A stretch of 25,993 nt of DNA. Origin: a virus. The position numbers and the translations under genes are program-made. Every line of letters begins with the position of its first letter. Within the stretch, counting starts at the first letter, position 1. The stretch spans positions 1 to 25,993 of IMG/VR virus record IMGVR_UViG_3300032278_002452, one strand, 5' to 3'. Under the pieces are notes generated by a model, which saw nothing but the letters and a program-made list of their open reading frames with translations, was not told the DNA's origin and searched no databases. Below, piece after piece: positions 4,592 through 25,093 of the stretch.

Positions 4592-5883
4592 TACGGTCTC
4601 CAGTGGAACCAGAAGTCAAGCTCATCATAGCCCGCTCCCAGGTCTGGCATCCTACGATAGTCTCTGGATTCACCAATCCCAGGATCTTCGGCAGAAGCAG
4701 ACCGGCTACCACGGAGCAAATAAGCCATCTGCTGTCTAAACTGAACTACAGCGAGCCTGAACGATTGCGGATCTTTATTTTGCATTTCGGCAAATTTATG
4801 AAATCCAAACCGTAGAAGCTCGAGGACTTCATTGTTGCGTCCAAGATTAACATACTCGTTCGCCTCTGGTCTTTGGCCCCAATTATCCAAAAAGTTAACT
4901 TCCAGAGGATAAACAGCGTCAGGTGCAGGTCTAAAGTCAACCTTTGTTGTCGGACCCTCATACCACTTCTCATTATTTCTCAATGCTGGATCAAGAAAAG
5001 TATCTTGAATAAATGAGGCTGCGCTTGTGGGATCCTTTTCACCGACAAAATACATTGGCACTCTTGCTCGAGTGGGGCCAACCTGTGATCGAAACAATCT
5101 TACAGGGTAAGAGTTGCCAACTACAAGATTAGTTGCGCCATACCTGAATGTTGGGCGCTGTCCTGCTGTTGCAGTATATGTAAAGGTTGGTCCTGGAGGT
5201 CCATACTGACCACTTTCCTTATCAAATGCAGCCCAAAAGTATTGATACTCTCCACCAGTGAATGCACCACCCGCTGACGATACAAACTCTGGCGCTTCTT
5301 GTGTACGAGGAAGAGTAGAGTTATCGTCACATCTATATACAATCGGCAATCCGCTATCTGCAAAACGATTATTATAAAAGAAATCTCTATCGAAATCATC
5401 ATCTGTAGCAGATGGCTTCTTCAATCCGTTCACGTTCACGTTCTTAATAGATGAAGTCTTATAAACGTGATCGGCTCTAACCAATGTGAGGTTTGTCACA
5501 CCAGTTGCATTAGTTGTGTGAATGGGTTTATCGAAAGTTATTCTCGCCGCGCCACCGAACGCGCTAATCTCGATAGCTTTGTAAATTCTGTTATCTTCGA
5601 TCCAATACCTTCCAGTATTGTTCCAATCGAATCCGGCTACAGCCGCAGTACTCCCGGTAACAAAGTTGTTCCCCGCGACCCATGTGTAAGTATTGGTCGG
5701 GTCGGCTATAGGAGCGAATGTCACATGCCCCTCTCTTCTCCAATTCCACGCCCATTTCTGTTCGCGAATGAGACGATACAGCTCCTCGAACCAAATATAA
5801 AATACGTCTGCCCCCATCTGCTGTCCAACAGCATCTTGGAGGAGTTCAATAATTTCACCGGTTTTCATTGTGGGGTTAGACAC
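4591..5883 (-). CDS. Head-to-tail adaptor / tail tubular A-like protein (430 aa)
   Basis: I place the start at GTG 5881-5883, because GGAGGAAG lies just upstream at the right distance. An in-frame GTG at 5911-5913 would add 10 residues but has no SD and falls inside a hairpin. Near the N-terminus is a helical stretch with the Trp-rich element EELYRLIREQKWAWNW, common near the start of short-tail adaptor proteins. A long beta-rich domain follows, then a C-terminal helix-containing part. Gene order (capsid proteins, this, tail nozzle) fits a T7 gp11 or P22 gp4-like connector ring. It is coupled by TAATG to the nozzle gene. Family membership is inferred. Confidence 0.65.
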   Translation of the reverse strand: MSNPTMKTGEIIELLQDAVGQQMGADVFYIWFEELYRLIREQKWAWNWRREGHVTFAPIADPTNTYTWVAGNNFVTGSTAAVAGFDWNNTGRYWIEDNRIYKAIEISAFGGAARITFDKPIHTTNATGVTNLTLVRADHVYKTSSIKNVNVNGLKKPSATDDDFDRDFFYNNRFADSGLPIVYRCDDNSTLPRTQEAPEFVSSAGGAFTGGEYQYFWAAFDKESGQYGPPGPTFTYTATAGQRPTFRYGATNLVVGNSYPVRLFRSQVGPTRARVPMYFVGEKDPTSAASFIQDTFLDPALRNNEKWYEGPTTKVDFRPAPDAVYPLEVNFLDNWGQRPEANEYVNLGRNNEVLELLRFGFHKFAEMQNKDPQSFRLAVVQFRQQMAYLLRGSRSASAEDPGIGESRDYRRMPDLGAGYDELDFWFHWRP

Positions 5884-7056: not shown

Positions 7057-8166
7057 CTACCACGTCTCCCACATTGCTCCACCAGAGCTATCAGAAACTC
7101 CGTGGTCGGACATGCGGAACAAGCCGAGGTTGAACGAATCCACCATCCATTGCGTCTGCTGGAGCTGACGATACGGGGTCCGAGGTGCCAAGGCGCGCTG
7201 ACGAACATTCGGGTTCACGATCATGAACATACCACCGTTCAGATCAAGAATGTTATCAGTCGCGACCTCTTCAAGGTCACCATCGAGCTTCACATCATCG
7301 TCTCCACCTGTCTTCTGCGAATCAAACTTCTCATCGATATGGAGGCAATATACCTCATCGGCGGGGCAGTTTGGATCCCAGCTAACCCAATGGCCATCGA
7401 ACATGAAAGAACGAACGCCATAGTCGGCATCCTGTCGATCAGTGATCAAATGGTACGGAGTACTCATTTCCAACATCGAACGTCGAATATTAGAGAATGT
7501 ATTACGAGTGGTAATAATGTCACTCGGAATAAGAGTACCAATTGTACACGCATCAATCAGCTGAAGCAGAGCAAGGATACCAGCAGGGAGGTTTGTACCA
7601 GCAGCAACTGTGCCAAAATTAGCAGTCAATTGCACATACTGGTTACGCCACCATGCAGATGTAGCCTTGTTCACTCCGCCAACGGTTTGCACCTGAGCAA
7701 CAGGTGCAGCCGTTTCAATGATCAATCCGAGACCATCAGGCTGAGAGCCGCCGAGCCCGTTGAAGACCGCGCTGGAAAGCGCGCGCTTCTGAGACACAGC
7801 AGCTTCCATCGTCTTGAAATCAAGAAGATCGAAAAGCGCCTGAGCGTTGCCCTCGTTCTCCCAGAGATCAAAAACATCGAAGCCAAGCGGCGTGGCGATG
7901 TATTTGTTCGTCCAGTAGGACAGAGCAGTTTGTGATGCACTGGTGTCAGGAAGCACGTCTCCGCGCGTCATCCACTTGCCCATGGTCGGAGGACCAAGCC
8001 ACAAGGGGACTTCCTTAACATCATAGCAGTTTACTACCTGCGCCGTCTTAACAAATCGACGGTACAGATAGCTCTTACGAAGTTCCTGAGCTACTAGTTT
8101 CTTGGAACGATCTTCTAGAGTTCGCACAAGATCAAACAGCTCAGTATATTGCTGTCGAACACCCAT
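7057..8166 (-). CDS. Major capsid protein
   Basis: Complete 369-aa protein, ATG 8164-8166, with a strong SD (AAGGAG). It directly follows a scaffold-like gene, the usual order portal, scaffold, capsid. Internal sequence is typical of major capsid proteins of the HK97-fold type: a helical N-terminal arm (residues 8-40), then the FNGLGGSQPDGLGLI region (135-150) leading to VGGVNKATSAWWRNQY (162-177). The 'nGlG...GGv.r...WWRN' arrangement is one I recognise from many phage capsid genes. An acidic insertion (GGDDDVKLDGDLEE) lies near residue 290. No cleavage site is evident. It assembles the icosahedral shell around the scaffold. Confidence 0.88.
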   Translation of the reverse strand: MGVRQQYTELFDLVRTLEDRSKKLVAQELRKSYLYRRFVKTAQVVNCYDVKEVPLWLGPPTMGKWMTRGDVLPDTSASQTALSYWTNKYIATPLGFDVFDLWENEGNAQALFDLLDFKTMEAAVSQKRALSSAVFNGLGGSQPDGLGLIIETAAPVAQVQTVGGVNKATSAWWRNQYVQLTANFGTVAAGTNLPAGILALLQLIDACTIGTLIPSDIITTRNTFSNIRRSMLEMSTPYHLITDRQDADYGVRSFMFDGHWVSWDPNCPADEVYCLHIDEKFDSQKTGGDDDVKLDGDLEEVATDNILDLNGGMFMIVNPNVRQRALAPRTPYRQLQQTQWMVDSFNLGLFRMSDHGVSDSSGGAMWETW

Positions 8167-11221: not shown

Positions 11222-13306
11222 CTACCACCTCTCGATCCCATTTGCAGCCATAGCAGCTGCAAATTCATTTAGTACAGGCTTGGGCTCAGGTTCAACCTGT
11301 GCTCGAATAAGAACACCTCGCTCGATATAAATCATATTCCAACAAAGAGACTCTGCGATAATGATATCATCATGAGCACCCTTCCGGGCCTGGATCTTAC
11401 CCTTGCTATCAATGATTATCTCATTCATCTCAGCAACAAGCTCTTTGAAGCCCGGTCTTTCTGGGTTCTCTCTATAGGATGCACGCAGCGCATAAAGCAT
11501 CGGGTGCCGATTACTAGCAGTAGTAACGGTCCACGCACGGTCGAGGATTGGCCCCTTGCCTGGAGTGTAATAGATATTGTAATACCCGGTCTGTTTAAAC
11601 ATGGACCAAACAACCTGCCCTGGACCGTTGCGCTCACAGTTAACCATGGCGTTGTTATAAAGACAGGCGAGAAGCAGCAAGGGGAGGGCCGCCTCTTCTG
11701 GTTTGATTCTATCCCTAAAGAGTGCGACGGTTTTGCCAACAGAATCCTTAACAACGAAAACCGTATAGTCGTAATCTGTTGCGCCTGCTTCATTAACTGA
11801 TTGCTTGCCCTCGGCAATATCCCCGCCGATGTAATACTTCTCATCTTTCTCTGGCATAACCCTAATCGCCAGCGAGCCGTATGGAACAGGGACAACCGAG
11901 GGCTGGTAATCACCAAACGGGTACAATCTTAAAGGATCATTGTTGCCATTATTATCAACAAGATTGCCAGTAAGTATAGGAAGCTCGACTGCACTTTGAC
12001 ATTTTTCAATTTCTTCAAACGAGAAAAACTTTCCGCCAACCATCTGCCAAGCATGTCGTGGGGATGTTGGGTACTCCTGATCGAAGACAGCACGGTCACC
12101 ACTGAAAGCATTTTTGATCTTTGACCTACGCCAATATGTCTGTGCTGGAGACAATTCATATCTATGTGAGAATTCTTCTTCTGTTAACAGAATCTTTCCT
12201 GCTGCATCAGTTTCAGAGATCTCTACATCATCATTAATATAAATGAAGTTACCTTCAGTATTGTAGCACTTTTCGGGTGGGTCTGTTTTGTATTCATCAG
12301 AGATATACCATGGAAGGAATATCGGTGTCGCATCAGCCTTTCCTTCTACTACACGATGCCACCTGTAGTAAAAACCGTTCACGCCTTCGGCTGTTGATTC
12401 ATCTACATATATGGTGTGGCGTTTCTCAGGTAGGCCGGGAACGATAGAAGCGTCGATCTGGCGGTCGCGCCCTCGGGGCCACTTTGGTTTCTCTGAGCAG
12501 TGAAGTATGCTAATGTGTTCAGAGGTTCCTGGGTTCGGTGCTTCTGCTGATTCAAACAGGAACCGGGACATGTTCTTCAGCTCAAGCACTTTACTGCCAC
12601 GACGCTCGATGCCTGGAAGATCGGGGAAAAGCTCAGTCATCTTCTCTAGCCAACGGAGAATGATCTGACGCTTTTCGTTAAGGTGATCGCCCTTATCAAT
12701 GATGATCATTGCTGTCAGCCCTGGGTTCTGAACCAGCAGCCAGAGCCAGAATGCCATCAACAAGGTTGTTACACCTAGCTGGCGTGACTTGAGAATGATC
12801 ACACGAACAGGAATATCGTTCAACCATTGATCGAGCAGGACTGCGGCAACCTTGCGCTGTCCTTGATTGAGCACCATCGGCCCAAAGCCGCCATCGGGAG
12901 CGTGTGGGCTCAACCCAGGGCGATAGGCAATCTCAAGAACCATCTTACAGAAGTAAGGAAACTCTGCGTATATCCTTCCAATAACATCTTCTGTTGGTTC
13001 AATAGCAGCAGGGATTCTCTTGGAGACAACCTTTTTAGATTTATCATCTTTCGGCGTTAGAGCACTAGCTGCCTCCAGCGGCGACATTCCTGTCTTGCTT
13101 AGGAAGAGAGCGGTTGCCTGTTGTTTAATGACGGCTTCATCCCACTCAGTCCCGGAAAGGACAAGCAGCTCTTTTATAGTATCAATACGACCCTGGACCT
13201 CTTCATAGCTATCCTTAGACTGCATAGAGCCGGACTGCTTATACTCTAAATCGTGAAACAAAAGCTGGGCTGTTTCAGCAACAAGTAGGTCTGTTGAGAG
13301 ATTCAT
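11222..13306 (-). CDS. terL: Terminase large subunit (packaging ATPase-nuclease)
   Basis: A 694-aa motor protein with both expected domains. ATPase: Walker A-like ILKSRQLGVTT (about 171-181) and a Walker B/catalytic-glutamate element ISILHCSE (265-272). Nuclease, RNase H-like: YYIGGDIAEG (D496), NCERNGPG (E558) and GAHDDIIIA (D646, D647). The first 100 residues are an extra helical, Lys-rich segment, longer than in minimal terminases. ATG 13304-13306 overlaps the small-subunit stop as ATGA. It cuts and pumps concatemeric DNA into the prohead through the portal encoded next. The set of motifs makes this the most secure call in the window. Confidence 0.95.
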   Translation of the reverse strand: MNLSTDLLVAETAQLLFHDLEYKQSGSMQSKDSYEEVQGRIDTIKELLVLSGTEWDEAVIKQQATALFLSKTGMSPLEAASALTPKDDKSKKVVSKRIPAAIEPTEDVIGRIYAEFPYFCKMVLEIAYRPGLSPHAPDGGFGPMVLNQGQRKVAAVLLDQWLNDIPVRVIILKSRQLGVTTLLMAFWLWLLVQNPGLTAMIIIDKGDHLNEKRQIILRWLEKMTELFPDLPGIERRGSKVLELKNMSRFLFESAEAPNPGTSEHISILHCSEKPKWPRGRDRQIDASIVPGLPEKRHTIYVDESTAEGVNGFYYRWHRVVEGKADATPIFLPWYISDEYKTDPPEKCYNTEGNFIYINDDVEISETDAAGKILLTEEEFSHRYELSPAQTYWRRSKIKNAFSGDRAVFDQEYPTSPRHAWQMVGGKFFSFEEIEKCQSAVELPILTGNLVDNNGNNDPLRLYPFGDYQPSVVPVPYGSLAIRVMPEKDEKYYIGGDIAEGKQSVNEAGATDYDYTVFVVKDSVGKTVALFRDRIKPEEAALPLLLLACLYNNAMVNCERNGPGQVVWSMFKQTGYYNIYYTPGKGPILDRAWTVTTASNRHPMLYALRASYRENPERPGFKELVAEMNEIIIDSKGKIQARKGAHDDIIIAESLCWNMIYIERGVLIRAQVEPEPKPVLNEFAAAMAANGIERW

Positions 13307-13742: not shown

Positions 13743-14379
13743 ACGACGCCAAAAGAGTATAAGTAAACTTTGTCCATGTAGGATTATGCACCACCTGCGA
13801 TTCGCAAAGAGACATAAAATAATCAAATTCATTAGGATCAGCAAATACCTGACAGCCCGCTGAGGCTAGATTGTTGCTAACAGCTATAGTGTGGGATGTG
13901 GCGCGATGGATGTTAATGCCGAAGTAGCCCTCAACTTCCGTATCGGGCAGTATATCAATTGTATCATCTTTATCCGCGTCGCGCCACACCCTGACAGGCC
14001 CATTGTTTTGTACAAGTGCCTCGTACTGCCCCCGATGTCTCCCAATAGAGTAACACGAACGATACTGGCCAGGACAGAGTATGGCGGTACCGTTCGGGTT
14101 GATGGGAGTCTCTAGGAAGCCAACACCTGGGTCTGTCGTAATCTTAAAATATCTTGCTACCCAACCATGCTCATCGCGATATGCAACGGCAAGAGTATCG
14201 TCAAAGTCTCCAGCTTGCAAATTCTCGGAGCGCAGACCTATAATGTTTAGATTATAGAACCCGCCGAGGAAGATAGCATAGCCAGCCTCCTCAACGCGCT
14301 TCAAAATTTCTGGAATTTGGTTTGTCATAGCAGTAAGAGAGCGCCATGAGGTATTATGACGGCGATCATGGTTCCTCAT
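13741..14379 (-). CDS. Putative peptidoglycan-active enzyme with SAGC motif (212 aa)
   Basis: Complete 212-aa protein, ATG 14377-14379, with AGGGA upstream. A central GQYRSCYSIGRHRGQYEALVQ region leads to GYFGINIHRA (H158) and then SAGCQVF (S173-C176). A histidine followed about 15 residues later by S-x-G-C resembles the active site of L,D-transpeptidase (YkuD)-like enzymes, and phage proteins with 'FGINIHR...SAGCQVF' are, to my knowledge, associated with cell-wall work. Substrate and fold are not established here. It has no signal peptide. Its place in the packaging operon, before terminase, suggests either an endolysin or a virion cell-wall enzyme. The first 17 residues (His/Arg-rich) could be an extension, as a second Met lies at residue 18. 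Confidence 0.6.
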   Translation of the reverse strand: MRNHDRRHNTSWRSLTAMTNQIPEILKRVEEAGYAIFLGGFYNLNIIGLRSENLQAGDFDDTLAVAYRDEHGWVARYFKITTDPGVGFLETPINPNGTAILCPGQYRSCYSIGRHRGQYEALVQNNGPVRVWRDADKDDTIDILPDTEVEGYFGINIHRATSHTIAVSNNLASAGCQVFADPNEFDYFMSLCESQVVHNPTWTKFTYTLLAS

Positions 14380-14381
14380 GA

Positions 14382-14447
14382 CGAGCGTTCCCTACAAACA
14401 CTTGGACTATTTGGGTCGTCCCAAACCCTCCCTAGCAGGTCCGCTCG
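14382..14447 (-). promoter_or_regulatory. Leader stem-loop just before the SAGC-enzyme start
   Basis: The spacer before the ATG at 14379 can fold: outer stem 14382-14387 with 14442-14447 (CGAGCG/CGCTCG) and a perfect inner hairpin at 14410-14425 (TTTGGG/CCCAAA, 4-nt loop). On the minus-strand mRNA the outer stem occupies the bases between the SD (AGGGA) and the ATG, so it may limit initiation. Confidence 0.4.
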
Positions 14448-14449
14448 CA

Positions 14450-14851
14450 TCAATCGCCAAACCGATGCTGCATGCTGGTCTTTGGGTCTTGCACAGTCGA
14501 CTGTGGGTCTCCGTTTACGTTAACCTCCGGTTGGATACCCGAAGACGCCCCATCTTGTAGGAGATGAGTAAAAACGCCCTCGTATTGAGAGCGAACCGTT
14601 GTTAGAAATTGGTCAAAATCTTCTTCTGAAGTCTCGTCAAGTGAATAATCGAATTCAAAATCTTCTCTAAGTTTCAAAATCCAGTAATGCAGCCTTACCA
14701 TTACTTCCGCCACATTAGTTTCAGGGGTGAACCAACGGTCGGATTGATTCACCAATGCGTGTCGCTGGTCGACTTCAATGGGTCTATTCAAGAGCAAAGC
14801 CATAACGAGTGGCAAAGTTGCAATCTTTGCTCTGTGAGAATCGTTAGCCAC
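14450..14851 (-). CDS. Unknown first protein of the late operon (133 aa)
   Basis: The 133-aa frame starts at GTG 14849-14851 behind GGAGG, about 20 bases downstream of the predicted late transcription start, so it is the first cistron. I do not recognise it. It is acidic, has a hydrophobic patch near residues 10-22 (IATLPLVMALLLNRPI) too short and polar-flanked for a sure membrane helix, a helical centre with many aromatic and acidic residues (VRLHYWILKLREDFEFDYSLDETSEEDFDQF), and a disordered Gln/Pro/Asn-rich tail. Being first in an operon of packaging genes, it could be a regulator, a packaging accessory factor or a second small-terminase candidate; none is demonstrated. Confidence 0.7.
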   Translation of the reverse strand: MANDSHRAKIATLPLVMALLLNRPIEVDQRHALVNQSDRWFTPETNVAEVMVRLHYWILKLREDFEFDYSLDETSEEDFDQFLTTVRSQYEGVFTHLLQDGASSGIQPEVNVNGDPQSTVQDPKTSMQHRFGD

Positions 14852-14867
14852 GATAGGGGGCCTCCAT

Positions 14868-14903
14868 GTGTCTTAATATAAGACGTATAGGGGCGCATGT
14901 CAA
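14868..14903 (-). promoter_or_regulatory. Late operon sigma70-type promoter
   Basis: On the minus strand TTGACA (14903-14898) is separated by exactly 17 bases from TATATT (14880-14875). The -35 is perfect and the -10 has five of six consensus bases. Transcription would start near 14868, giving a very short leader before the GGAGG and GTG of the 133-aa gene. A 25-bp element related to two others in this region lies about 20 bases upstream of the -35 and could bind an activator or repressor. Confidence 0.8.
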
Positions 14904-14923
14904 TAGATAATTTGACTATTTTT

Positions 14924-14948
14924 TTCTCTAGTAATTACAAGTAGTTAG
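14924..14948 (+). repeat. 25-bp element, copy 1, near late promoter
   Basis: Matches 16982-17006 at 22 of 25 positions, with shared core TTCTCTAG, AATTACA and TAGTTAG. On the minus strand it lies just upstream of the late -35 box, consistent with a binding site for a phage regulator. Confidence 0.65.
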
Positions 14949-15160
14949 CGCCGTTATACCCCATATTGGCGGATCAGGGCTAGGGGTGGGTGGGCAACAC
15001 GTGATAACATAGCGAATCCTTGAGTCAACATATCGCGATGAGGGTGCAGCTTCATAGATCATGGGGGTCTCGAGGCAAGGGGATCGCAGGCCTTGTAGAG
15101 CGTCGCGCTTCACGTGTTACCTTAGCCTTGCTCTTGCTCCGTCAACACCGCCGTCATCAC

Positions 15161-15220
15161 TTGGCACGGATGTTGCACACACTGCAATATCCGTGCCAAC
15201 ATGTTGGCATGGATCTTGCA
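15161..15220 (+). repeat. Triple 17-bp repeat (direct, inverted, direct)
   Basis: Three copies of a 17-mer with consensus TTGGCAYGGATVTTGCA: 15161-15177 (plus), 15183-15199 (minus) and 15204-15220 (plus). The first two form a 17-bp hairpin with a 5-nt loop and one G-T position, which would be a G-U pair in plus-strand RNA. The second and third are joined by the perfect palindrome GCCAACATGTTGGC (15196-15209). Iteron-like binding site and alternative RNA fold are both possible. Confidence 0.7.
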
Positions 15221-15303
15221 TCCCCCCGATAGATAAAGAGTCGTCTCATACTTTCTTGTACATCGTTCTAATTATTTGTACCGTGATCTCAGGTAGTTAC
15301 GAC

Positions 15304-15407
15304 CGTGACATTCATGTCGTGATCAGAAGTCAATGATATCAAGTAGTTAGAGATACCACGACATATTTGTCTTGCGTAGATTCAACGACCGTGACTCAAA
15401 TGTCACG
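15304..15407. promoter_or_regulatory. Three GAC-N6-GTC dyad sites
   Basis: Imperfect palindromes at 15304-15321, 15357-15374 and 15390-15407 share GAC-N6-GTC flanked by C/G-rich ends (for example CGTGACTCAAATGTCACG). Start-to-start spacings of 53 and 33 bases are near five and three helical turns, so a dimeric DNA-binding protein could occupy one face. Confidence 0.45.
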
Positions 15408-15531
15408 ATTTGGTCGATATACACTTTGTTTACTGAATAGTCATTCACCGATTTCTCCAACAATATCAGCTACTTGACTTTTTGGCACGCCAGTTGCAAT
15501 GTAGTTTGCCGACCACGTTCCAGTGGCGACA

Positions 15532-15547
15532 GACCAGGGTTTCCTGG
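15532..15547 (+). other. Short hairpin ACCAGG/CCTGGT
   Basis: Perfect 6-bp stem with a 4-nt loop, at the start of the hairpin-rich stretch. The next hairpin follows at 15557-15592 (AGATCGG/CCGATCT, perfect 7 bp with a long loop). Confidence 0.4.
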
Positions 15548-15812
15548 TAGGTAACAAGATCGGTGAACAAAGGAATGGTATAACTCCGATCTGAAATGCA
15601 GAGGTCCGATCCAAGTGGAAAGGTCCGTGTTAGCGACAGTTGTTCTACGGTTCAACGGCTGACATCCCTCTGATCCGAAAGTTTGCAGCAGGGCACAGGT
15701 CCGGTTCGTGTGACGACAGGTACGCATAGGCGACAACTGTTACGGGTTCGCGGTGACGGGTTCTGAAGTGCGACAAGTAAGTAGGGATAGGTCCGACTAC
15801 ATTTGGTGGAAT

Positions 15813-15832
15813 GTTACACGGTACAGTGTAAC
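15813..15832. promoter_or_regulatory. 20-bp dyad (7-bp perfect arms)
   Basis: GTTACACGGTACAGTGTAAC is palindromic at 18 of 20 positions. It could be a hairpin of the putative structured RNA or an operator for a dimeric regulator. Confidence 0.45.
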
Positions 15833-15957
15833 TTAGAGTAGGCCTCTGGTCCGCGCAGAGACATAGTATTGTTCTGGGTAAAGACCAGCTACCTGTGTAT
15901 ACGACCGCCAGGTCCACGGGATTCCAACGACCCTCTAAGTCAACGGAAGTACAACGA

Positions 15958-16097
15958 CCGCACCAACTGATTGGAACGAACAACGTGTGCGGCTATATGC
16001 AAACCAAAGTGACTGACACTGAAGTCCTTTGCAAGGGGTTGGCAGCCCTGAGCCAGTGTTGAACAGAGCGTGTGGCAGCGTGACTGGGTCACTTTGG
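15958..16097 (+). ncRNA. Structured RNA domains upstream of the main domain (candidate)
   Basis: Two nested units are seen. CCGCAC (15958-15963) pairs with GTGCGG (15987-15992) around a CCAA/TTGG hairpin. CCAAAGTGAC (16004-16013) pairs perfectly with GTCACTTTGG (16088-16097), enclosing ACACTG/CAGTGT (16016-16021 with 16054-16059) and an AGGG/CCCT hairpin. Density of pairing suggests one RNA with the domain at 16129-16317. Confidence 0.4.
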
Positions 16098-16128
16098 ACA
16101 TTCGTTCCCCCTCTTGATCAGCCTTGGT

Positions 16129-16317
16129 GCTGGTCATGGGTGAACAGAGCCCTAACGGGACATGCAGACAGTCCGCGAAAGCGGTCACCGCCTGCTGCTA
16201 CCGACCACAAGTGCAAGGACTTCCCCAACGCACGCAGAGGTGTGGTGCCTCTGCGTACATGAAGCCCTGTTGTTACATGGATCAACAACCCGCTAACTCT
16301 GTTCGCCCATGACCAGT
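16129..16317 (+). ncRNA. Candidate structured non-coding RNA domain
   Basis: Bases 16130-16149 pair with 16297-16316 in a continuous 20-bp helix containing one U-G (16141 with 16305), and 16129-16317 adds another G-U. A CGGG/CCCG helix continues after an internal loop. Inside lie CCGC-GAAA-GCGG (16173-16184, a GNRA tetraloop), a perfect 9-bp hairpin ACGCAGAGG/CCTCTGCGT (16232-16256) and GTTGTT/AACAAC (16269-16289, competing by one base with the closing helix). The G-U positions would be A-C mismatches in minus-strand RNA, so a plus-strand transcript is favoured. I recognise no named RNA family; large phage RNAs such as GOLLD or ROOL are possible comparisons. Confidence 0.55.
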
Positions 16318-16335
16318 CCTAAGACTGACTTAGGG
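16317..16335 (+). other. Hairpin between the RNA domain and the 160-aa gene
   Basis: CCTAAG (16318-16323) pairs with CTTAGG (16329-16334) over a 5-nt loop, with a flanking U-G. It directly follows the candidate RNA and precedes the SD of the next gene. No T-run follows, so it is not a typical terminator. Confidence 0.4.
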
Positions 16336-16357
16336 TCTGATCAACAGAGGGTGCTAT

Positions 16358-16840
16358 ATGTGTGAACAAGCAAAATGGCAACGGCGACCGGGCGGGATCT
16401 CCCGCAGAAACGGGGACCATAATGCCGTAAACAGGTCAGAGTTGTTCGGCTTGTCAAGTAGCTTTCCCAATGCGGATCGACTCCGTGTTGGCAAGCGTAC
16501 CTCCAAGGCGGCCCTCTCTACCACACCCAACAAGGTTCCAAAGTTTGCGGTCACTGAAGCTGCAAAGCAGAACAAAGTGATCAAGGCTGCGGGCTTGGGT
16601 AAGCAACTGGTCTGTGTTGCACAGAATGAAGATGAAAACACCTGTATTTACGTGGAAACGCGTGACCACAGTTGTGAACCAATCCGTGTACAGATCCGTT
16701 CAAAGAAAGGCGCAATGTGTGCAAGGGGTGAAATAACCCTTGGACCCGGTCAAGGCATGTGTCTGGGCTGGGAACAGCGTCTTGCAGACAACGTTCAGGA
16801 ATGCATCTCTGCGTACAAAGCAGGGAAGCAAGCCGCCTGA
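16358..16840 (+). CDS. Unknown basic, cysteine-containing protein (160 aa)
   Basis: The only long frame in the control region. ATG 16358-16360 follows AGAGGG at a suitable distance. The first 55 residues are Arg/Asn/Ser-rich and low in order. Residues 60-160 look like a genuine folded domain (KQLVCVAQNEDENTCIYVETRD, then IRVQIRSKKGAMCARGEITLGPGQG), with about seven cysteines spread out rather than in CxxC pairs, so a metal site is not evident. I do not recognise it. It is isolated from both operons, follows a structured non-coding stretch and is followed by a strong hairpin. A regulator or an early host-directed protein is possible. A shorter real start cannot be excluded. Confidence 0.55.
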   Translation: MCEQAKWQRRPGGISRRNGDHNAVNRSELFGLSSSFPNADRLRVGKRTSKAALSTTPNKVPKFAVTEAAKQNKVIKAAGLGKQLVCVAQNEDENTCIYVETRDHSCEPIRVQIRSKKGAMCARGEITLGPGQGMCLGWEQRLADNVQECISAYKAGKQAA

Positions 16841-16862
16841 CGTCGGGGCTAATACATAGCTC

Positions 16863-16892
16863 ACCGCCCGTGGGGTCGAACCGACGGGCGGT
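16863..16892 (+). terminator. Strong hairpin after the 160-aa gene
   Basis: A perfect 9-bp GC-rich stem (ACCGCCCGT/ACGGGCGGT) with a 12-nt loop, 22 bases after the stop codon. There is no T-run, so termination might be weak or factor-dependent; mRNA 3'-end protection is an alternative. Confidence 0.45.
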
Positions 16893-16914
16893 CGGGTATG
16901 TAGTAGTTACAGCT

Positions 16915-17006
16915 ACTTACAGCCGAGAGAAAAGTCGCCAGGGCCAAGGCGCATAAAAACAGGGTAGCCCTCTAAAAGGTATTCTCTAGCAATTACAGTT
17001 AGTTAG
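16915..17006 (-). repeat. 92-bp element, left copy (inverted)
   Basis: Outer 29 bases (16915-16943) match the reverse complement of 17195-17223 at 28 of 29 positions. Inner 34 bases (16973-17006) match the reverse complement of 17132-17165 at 26 of 34. The spacer is 29 bases in both copies but differs in sequence, which suggests an old duplication under selection at its ends. Confidence 0.75.
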
Positions 17007-17131
17007 ACTGTTAGGCTGTCGAACAGACCGCACACATGAGTCAACAGTGTGTAATCACAACGGCACTGATACGCGGGACCGGTCACTATTGAAGTGCAGC
17101 CGTGATTTATAAATCCAGTAACTAACGTCTA

Positions 17132-17223
17132 CTAACTACCTAATATTACTAAAGAAATCCTTTTATGACTATTGTTATTATATGTGTGGTCGACCCCTGG
17201 CGACTTCTCTCTCGGCTGTAAGT
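17132..17223 (+). repeat. 92-bp element, right copy
   Basis: Mirror partner of 16915-17006. Read on the plus strand it begins CTAACTAC, ATTACTA, AAGAAA and ends with a 29-base block (17195-17223) that points toward the early genes. The AT-rich middle includes TTGTTATTATATG but no good -35/-10 pair. A divergent pair of phage-specific promoters or regulator sites is a reasonable inference. Confidence 0.7.
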
Positions 17224-17249
17224 GCCTGAAATTACGGCACTTTATTTCC

Positions 17250-17283
17250 GCCATTGACGCGTCAAGTACGTGTCTCTGATAAC
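17250..17283 (+). promoter_or_regulatory. Weak early promoter with palindromic operator
   Basis: TTGACG (17254-17259) could be a -35 box with GATAAC (about 17278-17283) as a weak -10 at 18 bases. The -35 sits inside TTGACGCGTCAA (17254-17265), a perfect 12-bp palindrome well placed for repression. The promoter itself is uncertain. Confidence 0.35.
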
Positions 17284-17296
17284 ATAAGGGGCTACC

Positions 17297-17548
17297 ATGA
17301 TCACGCTACAAGAAGCTCTTGATTGGGCTATTGAAGAAGTCGAACAAGACACACCGCAGATCAATGTGCAGAATCCAGACGGTACTTGGCACATTGAAGG
17401 CAAAGTCATCTACGGTGCGGGCGGTGTCAACCGTTACTTTATCCGTGAAAATGAAGTCACGTTCTCTGCGCGGCATTGTTATCCTGACTCAAAGTATGGC
17501 GCAGAGGTCTTGTGCAGAGCTGTAAACGCTGGGTTTACAATAGAGTAG
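17297..17548 (+). CDS. Unknown small acidic protein (83 aa), first early gene
   Basis: An 83-aa frame with ATG 17297 preceded by AAGGGG at a good distance; the leader ends GGGGCTACC-ATG, close to but not the same as the repeated leader of later genes. The protein starts MITLQEALDWAIEEVEQ (helical, acidic) and continues as short strands (GKVIYGAGGVNRYFIRENEVTFSARH). It has two cysteines and no recognisable domain. Its TAG stop overlaps the beginning of a possible pseudoknot and is followed by a terminator-like hairpin, so it may form a separate transcription unit. Function unknown; as first early gene it may act on the host, but that is only position-based. Confidence 0.65.
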   Translation: MITLQEALDWAIEEVEQDTPQINVQNPDGTWHIEGKVIYGAGGVNRYFIRENEVTFSARHCYPDSKYGAEVLCRAVNAGFTIE

Positions 17549-17605: not shown

Positions 17606-17802
17606 AGGGCGCCTCCTACGGTTAGGTAAATCTTCCCCGTGCGATCCTTCTTGGATGTATTCGACAATGACGTCACTTGAACCCAAGAAGCAATGCAGGA
17701 ATGTTCAAGCGTTTGCAGCGTTAGTTACATGAAAGCAGGAGCGGGGATAGCTGGCTGCAATCAGCGACAAGAGAGGTCGGTTCGAGTCCGACAGCGCCCC
17801 TC
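17606..17802 (+). other. Structured spacer with tRNA T-arm-like hairpin
   Basis: This spacer contains an 8-bp stem CTTCTTGG/CCAAGAAG (about 17646-17689), a GCTG/CAGC hairpin near 17751-17766, and GTCGG-TTCGAGT-CCGAC (17776-17792), which has the stem length, 7-nt loop and TTCGA core of a tRNA T arm. It is followed by AGCGCCCC. No matching acceptor strand or anticodon arm was found at tRNA distance, so it is not called a tRNA. Confidence 0.4.
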
Positions 17803-17830
17803 GTTTACCGCCAACAATAGGGAGCCAGCA
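17803..17830 (+). promoter_or_regulatory. Repeated leader element, copy 1
   Basis: Contains CCAACAATAGGGAGCCAGC, ending one extra A before the ATG at 17831. The AGGGAG part is the ribosome-binding site; the conserved bases before it are not needed for that alone. Confidence 0.8.
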
Positions 17831-18010
17831 ATGGAAACACCATTCAAACTTGACAACAGGACTGAATGTCCGAAATGCCAGGTGAATCCTCTACGCGCAC
17901 CACTTGTATTCAACGCAACCGACCCAGCAACTGGGAAGTATTGGTGTGTGACATGCGACAAGAGCGCAACAAGTGCACGGATCAACGACGTGTTTAGAGG
18001 ACGTTTCTGA
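17831..18010 (+). CDS. Small zinc-ribbon protein (59 aa)
   Basis: The repeated leader fixes the start at ATG 17831; a longer in-frame extension to 17693 would cross the structured spacer and has no SD. The 59-aa product has C13-x2-C16 and C39-x2-C42 (TECPKCQ, then WCVTCDKS), a complete four-cysteine zinc ribbon occupying most of the protein. The C-terminal tail is basic (SARINDVFRGRF), which would allow nucleic-acid binding. Early-region phage proteins of this size often modify host transcription or nucleases; here no specific partner can be named. It is separated from the next gene by a structured spacer. Confidence 0.75.
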   Translation: METPFKLDNRTECPKCQVNPLRAPLVFNATDPATGKYWCVTCDKSATSARINDVFRGRF

Positions 18011-18135: not shown

Positions 18136-18243
18136 TGCTTCACACGGCTGTACTCCGGTCACCTGTGTGGATAAGACCCCTGCCGGAGGACGGAGCGCCC
18201 ACACCCGTCACCTGAAACCGATGCATCGTGTATGTGGGCCATC
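18136..18243 (+). other. Hairpin cluster before the 52-aa gene
   Basis: CTCCGG/CCGGAG and GCCCACA/TGTGGGC stems, the latter enclosing the perfect palindrome CGATGCATCG, fill this part of the spacer. GTCACCTG occurs twice. No promoter motif is seen. Confidence 0.35.
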
Positions 18244-18268
18244 TTTACGCCAACAATAGGGAGCCAGC
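18244..18268 (+). promoter_or_regulatory. Repeated leader element, copy 2
   Basis: TTTACGCC followed by AACAATAGGGAGCCAGC, directly before ATG 18269. It lacks one C relative to copy 3. Confidence 0.8.
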
Positions 18269-18427
18269 ATGGGCGACACACATGACTTGTGCGAAAAGTA
18301 TCTTATATATCTTCTGAACACACTCAAGGAAGCCGGAGTCGTGGGGAAAAGCAGGACGCTCGACGAGTTTGAAAGTCAAATGACTGCACTATTTAAGTGT
18401 AGAGATAAGAGTTACCGCCAACAATAG
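18269..18427 (+). CDS. Unknown small protein (52 aa) ending inside the next leader
   Basis: A 52-codon frame beginning exactly at the ATG served by leader copy 2 (MGDTHDLCEKYLIYLLNTLK). It is helical and mixed-charge, with two cysteines (C8 and C44) and no recognised domain. The frame has no stop before the next leader; it ends at the TAG within AATAGGG of copy 3, so its last residues (SYRQQ) are encoded by leader sequence. This means that ribosomes ending here sit on the next gene's SD, favouring re-initiation. The precise fit of leader and ATG is the main evidence that it is expressed. Function unknown. Confidence 0.65.
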   Translation: MGDTHDLCEKYLIYLLNTLKEAGVVGKSRTLDEFESQMTALFKCRDKSYRQQ

Positions 18428-18436
18428 GGAGCCAGC
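18411..18436 (+). promoter_or_regulatory. Repeated leader element, copy 3
   Basis: GTTACCGCC followed by AACAATAGGGAGCCAGC, directly before ATG 18437. It also supplies the stop codon of the upstream 52-aa gene. Confidence 0.85.
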
Positions 18437-18649
18437 ATGACTAAAGAACAACTTGCTGCACTTGGATACGGCACTGTTCTGAGCCACAGTAAGCTCAAGG
18501 ACAGTGGTGGCAATCCTGTGCTTGCACGGGTCAATGGTAAGATGCAGGTATGGAAGACAAGACCGGAAGACTTCAAGCTACCAATGAAGCACGGACTATA
18601 CAACTACTTCTATATTACGCCGACTAATGCTCACCTATGGAGCAAGTAG
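18437..18649 (+). CDS. Unknown small basic protein (70 aa)
   Basis: A 70-aa frame starting at the ATG of leader copy 3. It reads as a compact domain: helix (MTKEQLAALGYG), then strands (TVLSHSKLKD, VLARVNGKMQVWKTRPEDFKLPMKHGLYNYFYITPTN), basic overall and rich in Lys and aromatic residues. The pattern 'ARVNGKMQVWKTRP' is suggestive of a small beta-barrel or SH3-like fold, but this is impression, not alignment. There are no cysteines. It ends just before a compact pseudoknot. No function can be assigned. Confidence 0.7.
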   Translation: MTKEQLAALGYGTVLSHSKLKDSGGNPVLARVNGKMQVWKTRPEDFKLPMKHGLYNYFYITPTNAHLWSK

Positions 18650-18762: not shown

Positions 18763-18765
18763 ATA

Positions 18766-18791
18766 GTTACCGCCAACAATAGGGAGCCAAC
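18766..18791 (+). promoter_or_regulatory. Repeated leader element, copy 4
   Basis: Identical to copy 3 except for CCAAC instead of CCAGC before ATG 18792. Confidence 0.85.
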
Positions 18792-19190
18792 ATGGCAGTA
18801 TATGAGCAACTAATCGTCGTGGCACAGTGCCCTGATGGTGGTTCTTTCATGATCATCAAGAAAGAGCACTTTGAAGAAAAGTATGGTGCCTACGAACCAT
18901 TCATGGTCGCTCTGTACGTTGCACGTGCAGCAGCTTTACATACCTGGGCTCGGTCTGCGCCGATCAGAGTGTACGCAGTCAACCCTGCGGATGGTGGGCA
19001 ACCGATTGCAGTGTATCGTTTCACATACATGCAACTGACACGACCACACTGGTCAATCCCAAGCTACCATCCACATGCAAAGGACTACAATGCAGAGGAT
19101 GAATGGGATTATGATGCTGATGTGCGTGCTGCGCAGATTGAAGAGATTGAACAGCCACGACTACCCGGATGGGTAAAGGGAGAGGAGTAG
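18792..19190 (+). CDS. Unknown protein (132 aa)
   Basis: Complete 132-aa frame with its start fixed by leader copy 4. The N-terminal part alternates strands and helix (YEQLIVVAQCPDGGSFMIIKKEHFEEKYG, then FMVALYVARAAALHTWARS), the middle is a hydrophobic strand pair (IRVYAVNPADGGQPIAVYRFTYMQL), and the C-terminal 40 residues are acidic (DYNAEDEWDYDADVRAAQIEEIEQ). I recognise no domain. The acidic tail could mimic DNA or bind a basic partner, as some early phage proteins do, but this is speculation from composition. It overlaps nothing and is followed after two bases by the 58-aa gene. Confidence 0.7.
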   Translation: MAVYEQLIVVAQCPDGGSFMIIKKEHFEEKYGAYEPFMVALYVARAAALHTWARSAPIRVYAVNPADGGQPIAVYRFTYMQLTRPHWSIPSYHPHAKDYNAEDEWDYDADVRAAQIEEIEQPRLPGWVKGEE

Positions 19191-19507: not shown

Positions 19508-20149
19508 GTGGCCAATCTAAATGTAGAGGGTGTCGATGAGCGCGTACTGAGCGTGCTTGGTTACGAGCATGTCGGAGATCAGATCAGTGAAGAGGTATTC
19601 CAGGGTAACCTGGAGCTTGTCACTGAGAAGCCCGGCTTTGTTGAGGCATTGGAAGCAATGCGAGAGAACCAAGATACGCAGGCAATGTATCAGTTTGTCA
19701 TCAGCCAAGGACGTACACAGATTGAAGCGCTCATCGCAATGAGTGTCTCGTCTGGTATGCTCAGCAAGGCTGATGTTCGATCTGCTGCTAAGATCAGTAC
19801 CGCACGCACGCCGAAAGAGCGTCCGTGGTACAAGGACGTCGCTTCTGTTCTTATGGCAGCAGCGCACGAGGCCATCCAAGCCGCGTACCTTGAGAACCGT
19901 GACGCTTGGCGTGAGCAGTACGCTGAAGAGACTGTTGCTGATGATCTTGAGCATTTCCTCAAGGCTGTCGGCAAGAGCACGCTTGGCGATAGGGTCGACG
20001 GATATGTCCACCCTGATTCTGGTAAGGAATGTGCAACGTCACTATTCTACCGAATCGACGTGAACACACCGTCCCGTAACGGCACCAAGAAAGCCGAGAA
20101 GGACACCAATGGTGTGACCGATGAAGAGGCAGCCGACGCTCAAGCGTAA
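19508..20149 (+). CDS. Unknown acidic helical protein (213 aa)
   Basis: Begins at GTG 19508-19510 behind AAAGGAGGTAAT, the strongest SD in the early region; the overlapping ATG at 19506 is out of frame and stops at once. First gene after the 19409-19437 promoter, so probably well expressed. The product is almost wholly helical and acidic (NLELVTEKPGFVEALEAMREN, then VASVLMAAAHEAIQAAYLENRDAWREQYAEETVADDLEHFL), with one Cys near residue 176 and a disordered Lys/Glu/Asp tail. I recognise no family. A scaffold-like, single-strand-DNA-related or host-directed role is possible. It is followed by a hairpin with a short T-rich tail. Confidence 0.75.
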   Translation: MANLNVEGVDERVLSVLGYEHVGDQISEEVFQGNLELVTEKPGFVEALEAMRENQDTQAMYQFVISQGRTQIEALIAMSVSSGMLSKADVRSAAKISTARTPKERPWYKDVASVLMAAAHEAIQAAYLENRDAWREQYAEETVADDLEHFLKAVGKSTLGDRVDGYVHPDSGKECATSLFYRIDVNTPSRNGTKKAEKDTNGVTDEEAADAQA

Positions 20150-20164
20150 GCGCTCTTCCATGTC

Positions 20165-20333: not shown

Positions 20334-20349
20334 CAAATAGGGAGCCAAC
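20334..20349 (+). promoter_or_regulatory. Repeated leader element, copy 5 (short)
   Basis: CAAATAGGGAGCCAAC directly before ATG 20350; only the 3' half of the element is kept. Confidence 0.7.
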
Positions 20350-20817
20350 ATGACAGAGATTACTTGTCCTAAGTGCGGTGAGACCGTCGGCAGCGTTGCA
20401 GATAGCAGCTCGGCGTCGTTCTTTCACTGCGGAAAGTCAGTCCCGACAGACTCTTACCCCGACCTTGATCTGATCAGGTACGGCGGGTTGACTACAGGCA
20501 AAAAGTATACTGCGCTGCGTCAGACCATCAGGTGGTTGGAGTCTAAAGAGGACGAACACAGGCGGCTCGTTAGGTATCTGATTGATGCGCGTGCTGCGTT
20601 AGCTGAGGTCGTCAAGATCCAAGACGCATCTACAGCGCATGGTATCCACGAGGACGGAGGCAAGCTGCGCCTCAACGCATCTCAGAAGAAGAAGATCGAG
20701 ACTGTTAGAGAGATACTAAGAGTCCACGCCACTAACAATGGGATTGCCGCCACGCTTGACAACGCAGATGACCTGCGAGCATACTGCAAAGAGCATAGCC
20801 TCCCTGAGATGGTGTAG
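20350..20817 (+). CDS. Zinc-finger-containing unknown protein (155 aa)
   Basis: A 155-aa protein whose start is set by leader copy 5. The N-terminus has C6-x2-C9 (TCPKCGE) and HC at 26-27 (FFHCGK), enough for one zinc site. The rest is helical and basic: a coiled-coil-like segment from about 55 to 100 (LRQTIRWLESKEDEHRRLVRYLIDARAALAEVVK) and a Lys-rich stretch (NASQKKKIETVREIL). No known family is recognised. Nucleic-acid binding is plausible from charge and zinc motif. It opens a tightly packed run of genes leading to the helicase, so it likely belongs to that operon. Confidence 0.75.
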   Translation: MTEITCPKCGETVGSVADSSSASFFHCGKSVPTDSYPDLDLIRYGGLTTGKKYTALRQTIRWLESKEDEHRRLVRYLIDARAALAEVVKIQDASTAHGIHEDGGKLRLNASQKKKIETVREILRVHATNNGIAATLDNADDLRAYCKEHSLPEMV

Positions 20818-22348: not shown

Positions 22349-25093
22349 ATGAAATGTATCAGATGCGACCGCACCCTAAGAGGTGGCGCGTTCTGTCAGG
22401 AGCATGACGCTCCTGACAGGTGGCGCTATGTCGAGTGGGGGTTGGGAGCTGATGAAGAGAAAGCAGACGAGCTGCTTGTTAAAATTAGGCGGCTCGTCTG
22501 GTGGGATGTGTCGGATGACGACGTGCTATCGGCCAATGATATAGAAGACATCTTGTCTGAGAATAAGAACCTCGCAAACATACGTCTTGTTACAAGATGG
22601 ATGCACGCAAGTGGACATAGCAACTGGGCATCAGCACTTAACGAGCATGATAGGAATGCGATGAAGCTCGACATCAAGCCGGGCTCATCGTTTACATTCA
22701 CTGCCGAGGTGCCGAGAGAATATGGCATAGCAACCAGAAAGCTCACGAGCCTCAGCGTAGGTAATGAGCCCGGCACATACAGACAGGTGTTCAACCGTAT
22801 CGACTGGGACAAATTCCTTGCGATAGCGGAGGAGTACTACCCTGAAACACTGATACCTGAGATGAAAATCCCGGTAGTTGAGCCGGGTGACATGCGCCCG
22901 GCATATGATGATCAATGGACCTGTCATGTCGCCATTAATAGGGGGCAGATTGTTGGAGGCAAGTGGATCAGTACGGTGAAGCAAGAGATACTCAGGTTCG
23001 ACCAGTTTTTCACGGGCTCCTCACGTACTAAATATAGAATCGACAGTGTGTGGGGTGGGTGGAGAATGATAGCACCGGCTACCATTGAGAATCTTATGCG
23101 ACTGATCAACCAATCAGACCAACCACTGGAGACTAAGTGGGAGGCATCGGTTGAGATAGGTAGAATTAAAGGGACTCAACAGGTGAGCATGGAGTCATTC
23201 CAGTGGAGACTCAATACCAAACAATACGCCGATGGCTCACCGCATCGGTATGCCTATGTTGAAGAGAACAATCCACTATCGCTCATACCTAAGCGTACAA
23301 AGATTGGTGAGCAGTGGGATGAATATGTAAACGAGTACCAACTGTTCTCGCAACAAAAGATTTGCGCTGAAGTTGCATGGGCTCACAGACGGATTGGTTT
23401 GTGGCTCGATATGAGGCTAGGTAAGACGCTGATTGCACTGGCTGTGGCCAAGCGAGCAATGAGAGATGGGCTGATCGACAGGGTGCTGGTTGTGTGTCCC
23501 GTGACCAACCTGTATGACCCTTGGATACCAGAGACAGCAAAGCAGAGGTTCGAGATGTACTGCTGCGACGGCACAAGAGAAGAGGATGTCGCAGCGTTTG
23601 GTGACGATGAAATTCAAGTCTTTATGATCGGCTATGAGAAGCTGAAGAATCGTCTTGAGTACATGCAGTCTGAATGGGATATGGAGCGACTGTGTGTCAT
23701 CATGGATGAAACCAGTGCCATCAAGAACCCACAAGCCAAGAGGACTAAAGCCTGCATTGATCTATGCGAGCACCCTAAGTTTGTGCTTGCGCTCAACGGT
23801 ACACCCATGGAGCAGGGGCCAGCTGACATCTGGGCACAACAATTCTGCCTTGACCGTGGACGTACATTCGGTGTGACGTTCGGTGAGTTTGAGCGCCAGT
23901 ACCTACGAAGGGACCACACTAATAAGCTAAGGCTACTCAAGAACAAGCAACCCGTATTTGAAATGATGCTCGCTGCCTCCTCTATGCGATACATTCGCAG
24001 CGAGGGTGACCAGTTTAAAGGCAAGGATAAAAACTTCAGGTACATTACCATACCACCCACAGAGGAGATGGTCTTATCAACCAACAGGATCATTAAGGGT
24101 GTGCAGATAGAAAACTCTGGAGACATGCAGGCTATCAAGAGCTGCATTCTTGTGGTGTATGGTCACCTCAGAGAAGTTGCTGCTGGGTATGATAAGTTTG
24201 AAGAGGTTGAGGCTAGCGGTGTCTATCAGCGCAGACGACACCAGACTGACGGTAAGATTACATGGGTGCGGACATTCTGTAAGAGCAACCCAGGACATCC
24301 GATGGTACTCTATACAGAATTCAGTGAGTCTGAGGACAGGCTAATGGAGATGCTCGATAGAGAAGGTATCACCTACGCATCGCTACGACCTAAGTATGGG
24401 TCACCGTACCCACCAGCTAGAAGGATGGAGGAAATTAATAAATTCAACAGCGGCGAGGCAAGAGTATTCATATGTAAAAACTCACAGGCGAGGGGCATCA
24501 CTCTTAATAGACTTGATGCTGTTGCCGACGGCATTGGTACATACCCATCCATTGTGTACATGCAACCAGCATGGAGCCTTGGCTCATGGAAGCAAAGCCA
24601 AGATAGATGTGTCGGTGTCGACAAGGCAACCGGACGAAACATCGCTACGATGGTATATGTTCTTGTGATCCAAGGATCAATTGAAGAGAAGATAGTAAAG
24701 GCGTTGCGATCCAAACAGGCTGTTGCAGAAACACTGCTTAAGGATGCTGGCCGTGGTGGCTATACCAATCCGTTTGAGGAAATGGATATGAGTGGTGGCG
24801 ATGGCGAGGGTGATGAGCTGTTCGATGCACAGGATTACGAGGCACGGTATGTCCTCGAGCTGCCACCGCAGAAGCCACTAACTGAGCAGATGATTAGAAA
24901 GGCTGGCGCTAGGTTGATAGCCAAGCGACTAGGAATTTCAATCAGAGTTGCTAGTCAACGACCGTTGCCGCTTGAAGCAGTGTTCCTATTGAGTAAGCTT
25001 ACCAATGATGGTGAGTCTGATAAGATAAGGGAAGCACTAGCCAGCGATAATGTTATTCAAATTACAAAGCTAGCCGAGGCTAAAGAAGAATGA
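22349..25093 (+). CDS. SNF2-type superfamily 2 helicase with N-terminal zinc knuckle (914 aa)
   Basis: The largest protein here. Helicase core: motif I DMRLGKT (about 354-360), motif Ia-like VLVVCPVTNL, motif II DETSAIKNP (453-461, DETS in place of DEAH), motif III LNGTPMEQG (482-490). The C-terminal lobe contains ARGITLNR and SWKQSQDRCVG (motifs V-VI). This layout is that of SNF2/Rad54-like DNA translocases used by phages in replication or recombination. The first 20 residues hold C3, C6, C16 and H19, a zinc knuckle. Residues 20-330 match no domain I recognise. ATP hydrolysis and DNA translocation are inferred from motifs. It ends ATGA-coupled to the next gene. Confidence 0.88.
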   Translation: MKCIRCDRTLRGGAFCQEHDAPDRWRYVEWGLGADEEKADELLVKIRRLVWWDVSDDDVLSANDIEDILSENKNLANIRLVTRWMHASGHSNWASALNEHDRNAMKLDIKPGSSFTFTAEVPREYGIATRKLTSLSVGNEPGTYRQVFNRIDWDKFLAIAEEYYPETLIPEMKIPVVEPGDMRPAYDDQWTCHVAINRGQIVGGKWISTVKQEILRFDQFFTGSSRTKYRIDSVWGGWRMIAPATIENLMRLINQSDQPLETKWEASVEIGRIKGTQQVSMESFQWRLNTKQYADGSPHRYAYVEENNPLSLIPKRTKIGEQWDEYVNEYQLFSQQKICAEVAWAHRRIGLWLDMRLGKTLIALAVAKRAMRDGLIDRVLVVCPVTNLYDPWIPETAKQRFEMYCCDGTREEDVAAFGDDEIQVFMIGYEKLKNRLEYMQSEWDMERLCVIMDETSAIKNPQAKRTKACIDLCEHPKFVLALNGTPMEQGPADIWAQQFCLDRGRTFGVTFGEFERQYLRRDHTNKLRLLKNKQPVFEMMLAASSMRYIRSEGDQFKGKDKNFRYITIPPTEEMVLSTNRIIKGVQIENSGDMQAIKSCILVVYGHLREVAAGYDKFEEVEASGVYQRRRHQTDGKITWVRTFCKSNPGHPMVLYTEFSESEDRLMEMLDREGITYASLRPKYGSPYPPARRMEEINKFNSGEARVFICKNSQARGITLNRLDAVADGIGTYPSIVYMQPAWSLGSWKQSQDRCVGVDKATGRNIATMVYVLVIQGSIEEKIVKALRSKQAVAETLLKDAGRGGYTNPFEEMDMSGGDGEGDELFDAQDYEARYVLELPPQKPLTEQMIRKAGARLIAKRLGISIRVASQRPLPLEAVFLLSKLTNDGESDKIREALASDNVIQITKLAEAKEE

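Follow-up and report, generated by a model that had tools for sequence, protein, structure and literature searches.

A strongly folding non-coding element ahead of the first early gene in an uncultured tailed phage: a candidate structured leader

Phage leaders and intergenic hairpins such as the lambda N leader and those of the T7 early mRNA are processed by RNase III, and cis-antisense RNA pairs over the ribosome-binding site in CopA/CopT and OOP. Robo-Therm RNA thermometers are 5' leaders that occlude the ribosome-binding site, one of them also in a Caudoviricetes phage (PMC11182007), and GOLLD and ROOL are large, ornate phage RNAs, the 3' region of GOLLD being universally conserved (PMC12286853).

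Here we analyze a 25,993-base viral contig from an uncultured tailed phage (the window, i.e., the whole stretch of DNA studied), in which a strongly folding element lies directly upstream of the first early gene. Like the RNase III-processed phage leaders, the locus has long double-stranded RNA upstream of the first early gene, with cleavage putative here, and, as in CopA/CopT and OOP, both strands form complementary stem-loops over a gene start, although no minus-strand promoter was found. The element also resembles ribosome-binding-site-occluding leaders and RNA thermometers, in which a helix within a structured, little conserved 5' UTR sequence likewise holds the Shine-Dalgarno sequence (PMC11182007); their hallmark, a base-paired Shine-Dalgarno sequence, is predicted for the element as well. 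However, the present domain is far larger, has a long-range (215-nt) outer pairing and sits inside an ∼850-nt leader, and its regulation is a prediction. With GOLLD and ROOL (PMC12286853) it shares the character of a large non-coding structured RNA candidate in a phage, but it has no Rfam match even at a permissive threshold, no conservation across relatives and no tRNA gene in the record (ARAGORN), a neighborhood that holds for GOLLD and ROOL often, not always. In our judgment, the element is a further example of structured phage leaders and not a new class. The features of the locus are as follows.

7057-8166, leftward: major head protein
11222-13306, leftward: terminase
15162-15219: cluster of three sigma-54-like sites besides that at 15483, by sequence (15162, plus; 15184-15198, minus; 15205, plus, one mismatch)
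15304-15321 and 15390-15407, with a weak copy at 15357: palindromic activator-site-like repeats CGYGACAT-NN-ATGTCRCG, by sequence
15337-15349: IHF-like site between the palindromes, by sequence
15483-15497, plus: exact sigma-54 consensus match, by sequence, giving a probable leader start at ∼15509
15973-16107, plus: weaker folded stretch adjoining the element, closed by GGAACGAA/TTCGTTCC (z -1.5, not significant)
16107-16128, plus: left side of the outer extension, by fold; in plus RNA, the CCCUCU found within 16107-16121 is the pairing partner of the Shine-Dalgarno sequence
16129-16149, plus: 5' arm of the closing helix, by pairing and fold
16150-16296, minus: interior, in minus RNA a nearly fully paired three-way junction by fold, above chance only with G-U pairs
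16173-16184: GNRA hairpin by sequence, with 4-bp stem (CCGC-GAAA-GCGG; GAAA loop on plus, UUUC loop on minus)
16232-16256, both strands: 9-bp perfect hairpin ACGCAGAGG/CCTCTGCGT by sequence and fold, longer on minus through U-G pairs
16297-16317, plus: 3' arm of the closing helix, by pairing and fold
16318-16351, plus: right side of the outer extension, by fold, ending on the Shine-Dalgarno sequence AGAGGG (16346-16351)
16358-16840, plus: first early gene, encoding 160 aa that match nothing in the databases; Shine-Dalgarno sequence in the outer helix
16903-17235: sister structure after the first early gene, by fold (333 nt; 41-nt arms, 88% complementary; z ∼-9)
22349-25093, rightward, early: helicase
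from 25436, rightward, early: exonuclease

Fold, extent and coding content of the element

The original prediction had the ends of 16129-16317 pairing over 20 positions, two of them G-U on the plus strand; we count 21 consecutive positions (16129-16149 with 16297-16317), made up of 19 Watson-Crick pairs and two G-U pairs on plus, at 16129/16317 and 16141/16305. In the comparison with dinucleotide shuffles that the same prediction proposed, the 189-nt stretch folds at -84.3 kcal/mol on the plus strand (z -6.0) and at -105.8 kcal/mol on the minus strand (z -8.1), and on neither strand do any of 200 shuffles fold as well. The closing arm is the top plus-strand long-range duplex of the whole window (-48.0, against a mean of -19.3 and an sd of 4.6), and the inverted repeat of the element ranks second in length across the 26 kb. 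Inside it, the predicted GNRA and 9-bp hairpins are both present, but the interior stems (16150-16296) are jointly no stabler on plus than those of shuffled sequences.

Codon-usage scoring finds no inner ORF coding, in agreement with what had been proposed: ORFs inside the element score ∼0 or below, and most long genes score 0.14-0.35. The expectation that the element belongs to no known family is likewise borne out by Rfam, which gives nothing at the gathering threshold across the window and, at permissive thresholds, nothing within 14850-16400 (E up to 5) or within 16050-16420 (E up to 10), GOLLD, ROOL and OLE included; a lone sub-threshold match sits elsewhere, at 20093-20150. ARAGORN reports no tRNA or tmRNA, and no intrinsic terminator (a G+C-rich stem followed by a T run) is found at the element on either strand. 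These results support a strongly folding, non-coding stretch without a match to a described family, and to that extent the proposal of a discrete, undescribed plus-strand RNA domain stands; the argument for the plus strand does not (see below), and the free-standing character of the domain is at most putative: it takes in the Shine-Dalgarno sequence of the gene that follows, a long leader surrounds it, and three relatives that carry the corresponding region yield no detectable homologue.

The element also reaches past 16129-16317 to 16107-16351 (245 bases), directly upstream of the first early gene, and the plus fold of this longer interval has a z of -6.3 (0 of 600 shuffles as good). Positions 16107-16121 and 16337-16351 pair around a short side hairpin, and the outermost helix joins CCCUCU-UGAUCAG to CUGAUCA-AC-AGAGGG; this helix is bulged, and an ungapped helix scan missed it. 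Scored as a nested addition, the outer extension is equaled in 47 of 2000 shuffles on plus and in 16 of 2000 on minus (i.e., it is better than 97.6% and 99.2% of them).

Control region, leader and relatives

A non-coding divergent region of ∼1.5 kb runs from 14851 to 16358, and every gene downstream of the element up to the end of the record is on the plus strand. The core of the sigma-54 promoter consensus is TGGCAC-N5-TTGC; with at most one mismatch, it occurs eight times in the window against 1.8 expected, and four of the eight lie in the divergent region (three exact and one with a single mismatch, all in 15162-15497). Judged by this core, the sites of the divergent region qualify as candidate sigma-54 promoters; they could also be operator sites of one regulator. 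All right-pointing sites of the region are upstream of the element. The first three sites are set as direct and inverted repeats, an arrangement unusual in a phage control region. Palindromes of the form CGYGACATNNATGTCRCG stand upstream of a sigma-54-like site both in the window (15304-15407) and in the relative G002 (L123:2841-2972) and are possibly activator sites.

With a start at ∼15509, as the site at 15483 suggests, the untranslated leader would cover the ∼850 nt before the ATG at 16358. The fold of its 5' part (15509-16106) is unremarkable (z -0.5). This part carries AGGTCCG four times (15602, 15621, 15697 and 15789), always on plus; the window has seven copies against 2.1 expected. 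The notion of the whole leader as one ornate RNA was set aside, the 821-nt fold reaching a z of only -2.0 on plus and -2.7 on minus.

In the predicted ensemble of the plus transcript, the Shine-Dalgarno sequence AGAGGG is closed, with A16346 unpaired at ∼0.28 and the other positions at ≤0.03; this holds for every leader start tested, from 15509 to 16109, and the sequence opens once only 16310 onward is present. Measured against the whole leader, the Shine-Dalgarno duplex is unremarkable by itself, and since 182 of 1000 shuffles equal it we dropped the pairing as stand-alone proof. Occluded ribosome-binding sites are also predicted for several other genes of the record.

Neither DNA similarity to any of 50,697 phage records nor prophage relatives in bacterial genomes were found, and scans with single proteins (those of gene 16358, the endolysin-like gene, the terminase and the helicase) gave no close relative. 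A degenerate terminase pattern followed by two alignment scans yielded relatives, all uncultured viral contigs: L122, L126, L127, L128, L129 and L130, with terminases ∼69%-72% identical, and the more distant L143 (44%) and G002 (42%-44%). Three of these, L130, L126 and G002 (terminase identity 69%, 69% and 42%), carry the whole divergent region and the first early gene, and all three keep the order of sigma-54-like site, non-coding leader (657, 1181 and 934 nt, respectively) and first early gene. L130 and G002 have exact sigma-54-like sites, and the leaders of L130 and L126 are directly preceded by one-mismatch sites. The sites are clustered in L130 too; G002 has a single exact one. Beyond the promoter, the leaders of the window and the three relatives have no detectable sequence in common, and the element itself has no match in the three. 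Because close relatives lack its sequence, we regard the element as a fast-changing control element and not as a conserved RNA family. The predicted folds of L126 and G002 also have the first gene's Shine-Dalgarno sequence paired; in L130 its pairing is only partial.

Under our preferred, still tentative reading (probability roughly 0.4), the element acts in cis within the early leader, evolves fast and conceals the ribosome-binding site of gene 16358. Computation gives the fold and how far it reaches, the pairing of the Shine-Dalgarno sequence in the predicted ensemble, a leader without coding signal and the conserved layout; the promoter, the transcript and the translational switch are what we infer. 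The plus-strand transcript would begin at ∼15509, at the sigma-54-like promoter at 15483; within it, 16107-16351 would fold as one closed domain at the 3' end of the ∼850-nt leader, with the outermost helix covering the Shine-Dalgarno sequence of gene 16358-16840, and translation of the first early protein would likely stay blocked as long as the helix is neither opened nor cleaved, which could come about through RNase III acting on the 21-bp helix, through a protein or through the kinetics of translation and transcription. The leader reading draws on the strong fold, the paired Shine-Dalgarno sequence, the nested extension, the lack of coding signal, the plus-strand genes downstream, the right-pointing sites upstream and the kept layout; against it stand the plus interior (z -0.6), the better fold of the minus strand, the ordinary Shine-Dalgarno duplex, the partial pairing in L130 and the lack of a sequence homologue, which limits our judgment most. 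If the leader reading is true, the first early gene would be under two controls, an activator-requiring sigma-54-type promoter and a start-site-hiding leader, and phage takeover could be tied to host physiology. In a literature search of partial coverage, no paper turned up on early phage promoters driven by sigma-54.

Strand preference and alternative readings

From its two G-U pairs, the closing helix had been taken to show selection on plus-strand RNA; the folding data do not bear this out, as stability that depends on G-U pairs is exceptional only on the minus strand. With G-U allowed, the interior (16150-16296) is ordinary on plus (150 of 600 shuffles as good) and folds at -68.3 kcal/mol on minus (z -4.2, 0 of 600); with G-U forbidden, both strands are unremarkable. 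The energy gained through G-U pairs on minus is -26.4, against a shuffle mean of -12.0, and a gain as good is seen in none of 600 shuffles on minus and in 253 of 600 on plus. Over 16107-16351, where the minus fold reaches -133.7 kcal/mol (z -9.4), the same minus signal is present in weaker form. For these stretches, at most one in 600 shuffles equals the G-U gain, and on minus only. The minimum free energy structure has 78 pairs on minus, 13 of them G-U, and 65 on plus, four of them G-U, and the minus-plus energy difference has a z of -2.7 to -3.7. The G-U signal belongs to single-stranded minus RNA, or possibly to single-stranded minus DNA, and should not be over-read, because it comes from one sequence and because similar z-scores turn up at a few other places in genome-wide 200-nt scans, the helicase gene among them.

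These minus-strand folds, G-U gains and pair counts, together with the better score of the outer extension on minus, are what would be expected of a minus-strand RNA running from ∼16351 down to 16107 as a three-way junction, antisense to gene 16358 at its leader and ribosome-binding site and acting either as a cis-antisense regulator or as a free phage ncRNA. We hold such an RNA to be somewhat unlikely: no minus promoter-like site lies just upstream of 16351 (the sole one in 14300-17300 is at 14903), there is no minus-strand gene to the right, both G-U pairs of the closing helix turn into A-C mismatches on minus, and the leaders of the three relatives show no consistent strand preference at the position of the element. 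Location and Shine-Dalgarno pairing favor the cis-acting plus leader, and the G-U signature of the interior favors minus. If true, the minus-strand RNA would be a new phage antisense RNA. A more specific picture is distinctly unlikely: a ∼245-nt minus RNA that forms a three-way junction and is antisense to the ribosome-binding site of gene 16358. In that picture the phages are a little-studied group whose early region appears to depend on sigma-54-type promoters, and the largest inverted repeats in the record flank the first early gene.

Alternatively, the inverted repeat may act at the DNA level, as a protein-binding or replication-origin palindrome or as a single-stranded DNA structure, the RNA fold being a by-product. 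Even with G-U forbidden, 16107-16351 folds well on both strands (z ∼-6.5 each); gene 16358-16840 is flanked by the three longest inverted repeats in the record, one on its left (16118-16328) and two on its right (16849-16906 and 16903-17235), repeats of a kind typical for control DNA occur in the divergent region, and the cumulative GC skew changes direction near 14-15 kb. However, the arms are 147 bases apart, far beyond usual operators, and a role in double-stranded DNA does not explain why the interior is ordinary without G-U pairs and the minus strand exceptional with them, so we think this reading unlikely. An inserted small non-autonomous mobile element (MITE-like) or its relic is very improbable, since the long imperfect terminal inverted repeats and their absence at the same place in relatives are set against a single copy in the record where multiple copies are expected, a right end coinciding with the Shine-Dalgarno sequence, no flanking target duplication among the direct repeats, and arms unrelated to those of the nearby sister element.

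The first early gene and structures beyond the element

In the window, L130 and L126, the protein at the first-early-gene position is short and its N-terminus basic; the three are only ∼20% identical, and homology of the gene-16358 protein with its counterparts is not proven. Its AlphaFold model (mean pLDDT 47.5) was set aside. The sister structure at 16903-17235, whose arms are unrelated to those of the element, has counterparts in L130 (1446-1780) and L126 (2435-2839), where large stable folds directly follow the first early gene (z -4.5/-7.3 and -8.1/-5.6, respectively) and have a common 3' sequence, TAAGTnnnTGAAATtA...TTGACnnGTCAA; it is perhaps better suited to covariation analysis than the element.

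Further repeats and hairpins mark the early region. A gene-start module, CGCCAACAATAGGGAGCCARC-ATG, is repeated before several early genes (17803-17832, 18242-18271, 18410-18439, 18765-18794 and 20336-20356). Hairpins resembling a tRNA T-arm (e.g., CCCGGGTTCGATTCCCGGG), in which ARAGORN finds no complete tRNA, lie just upstream of early genes at 17770-17800 and at L123:3950-3985, 4325-4366 and 4692-4732 and are possibly RNA processing signals. Two strong, perfect-looking hairpins are found at the start of the helicase gene (22377-22500; plus z ∼-8 in a 200-nt window), and in L130 two long, near-perfect hairpins (425-560) stand between early genes, with a z of -10.5 for 400-626.
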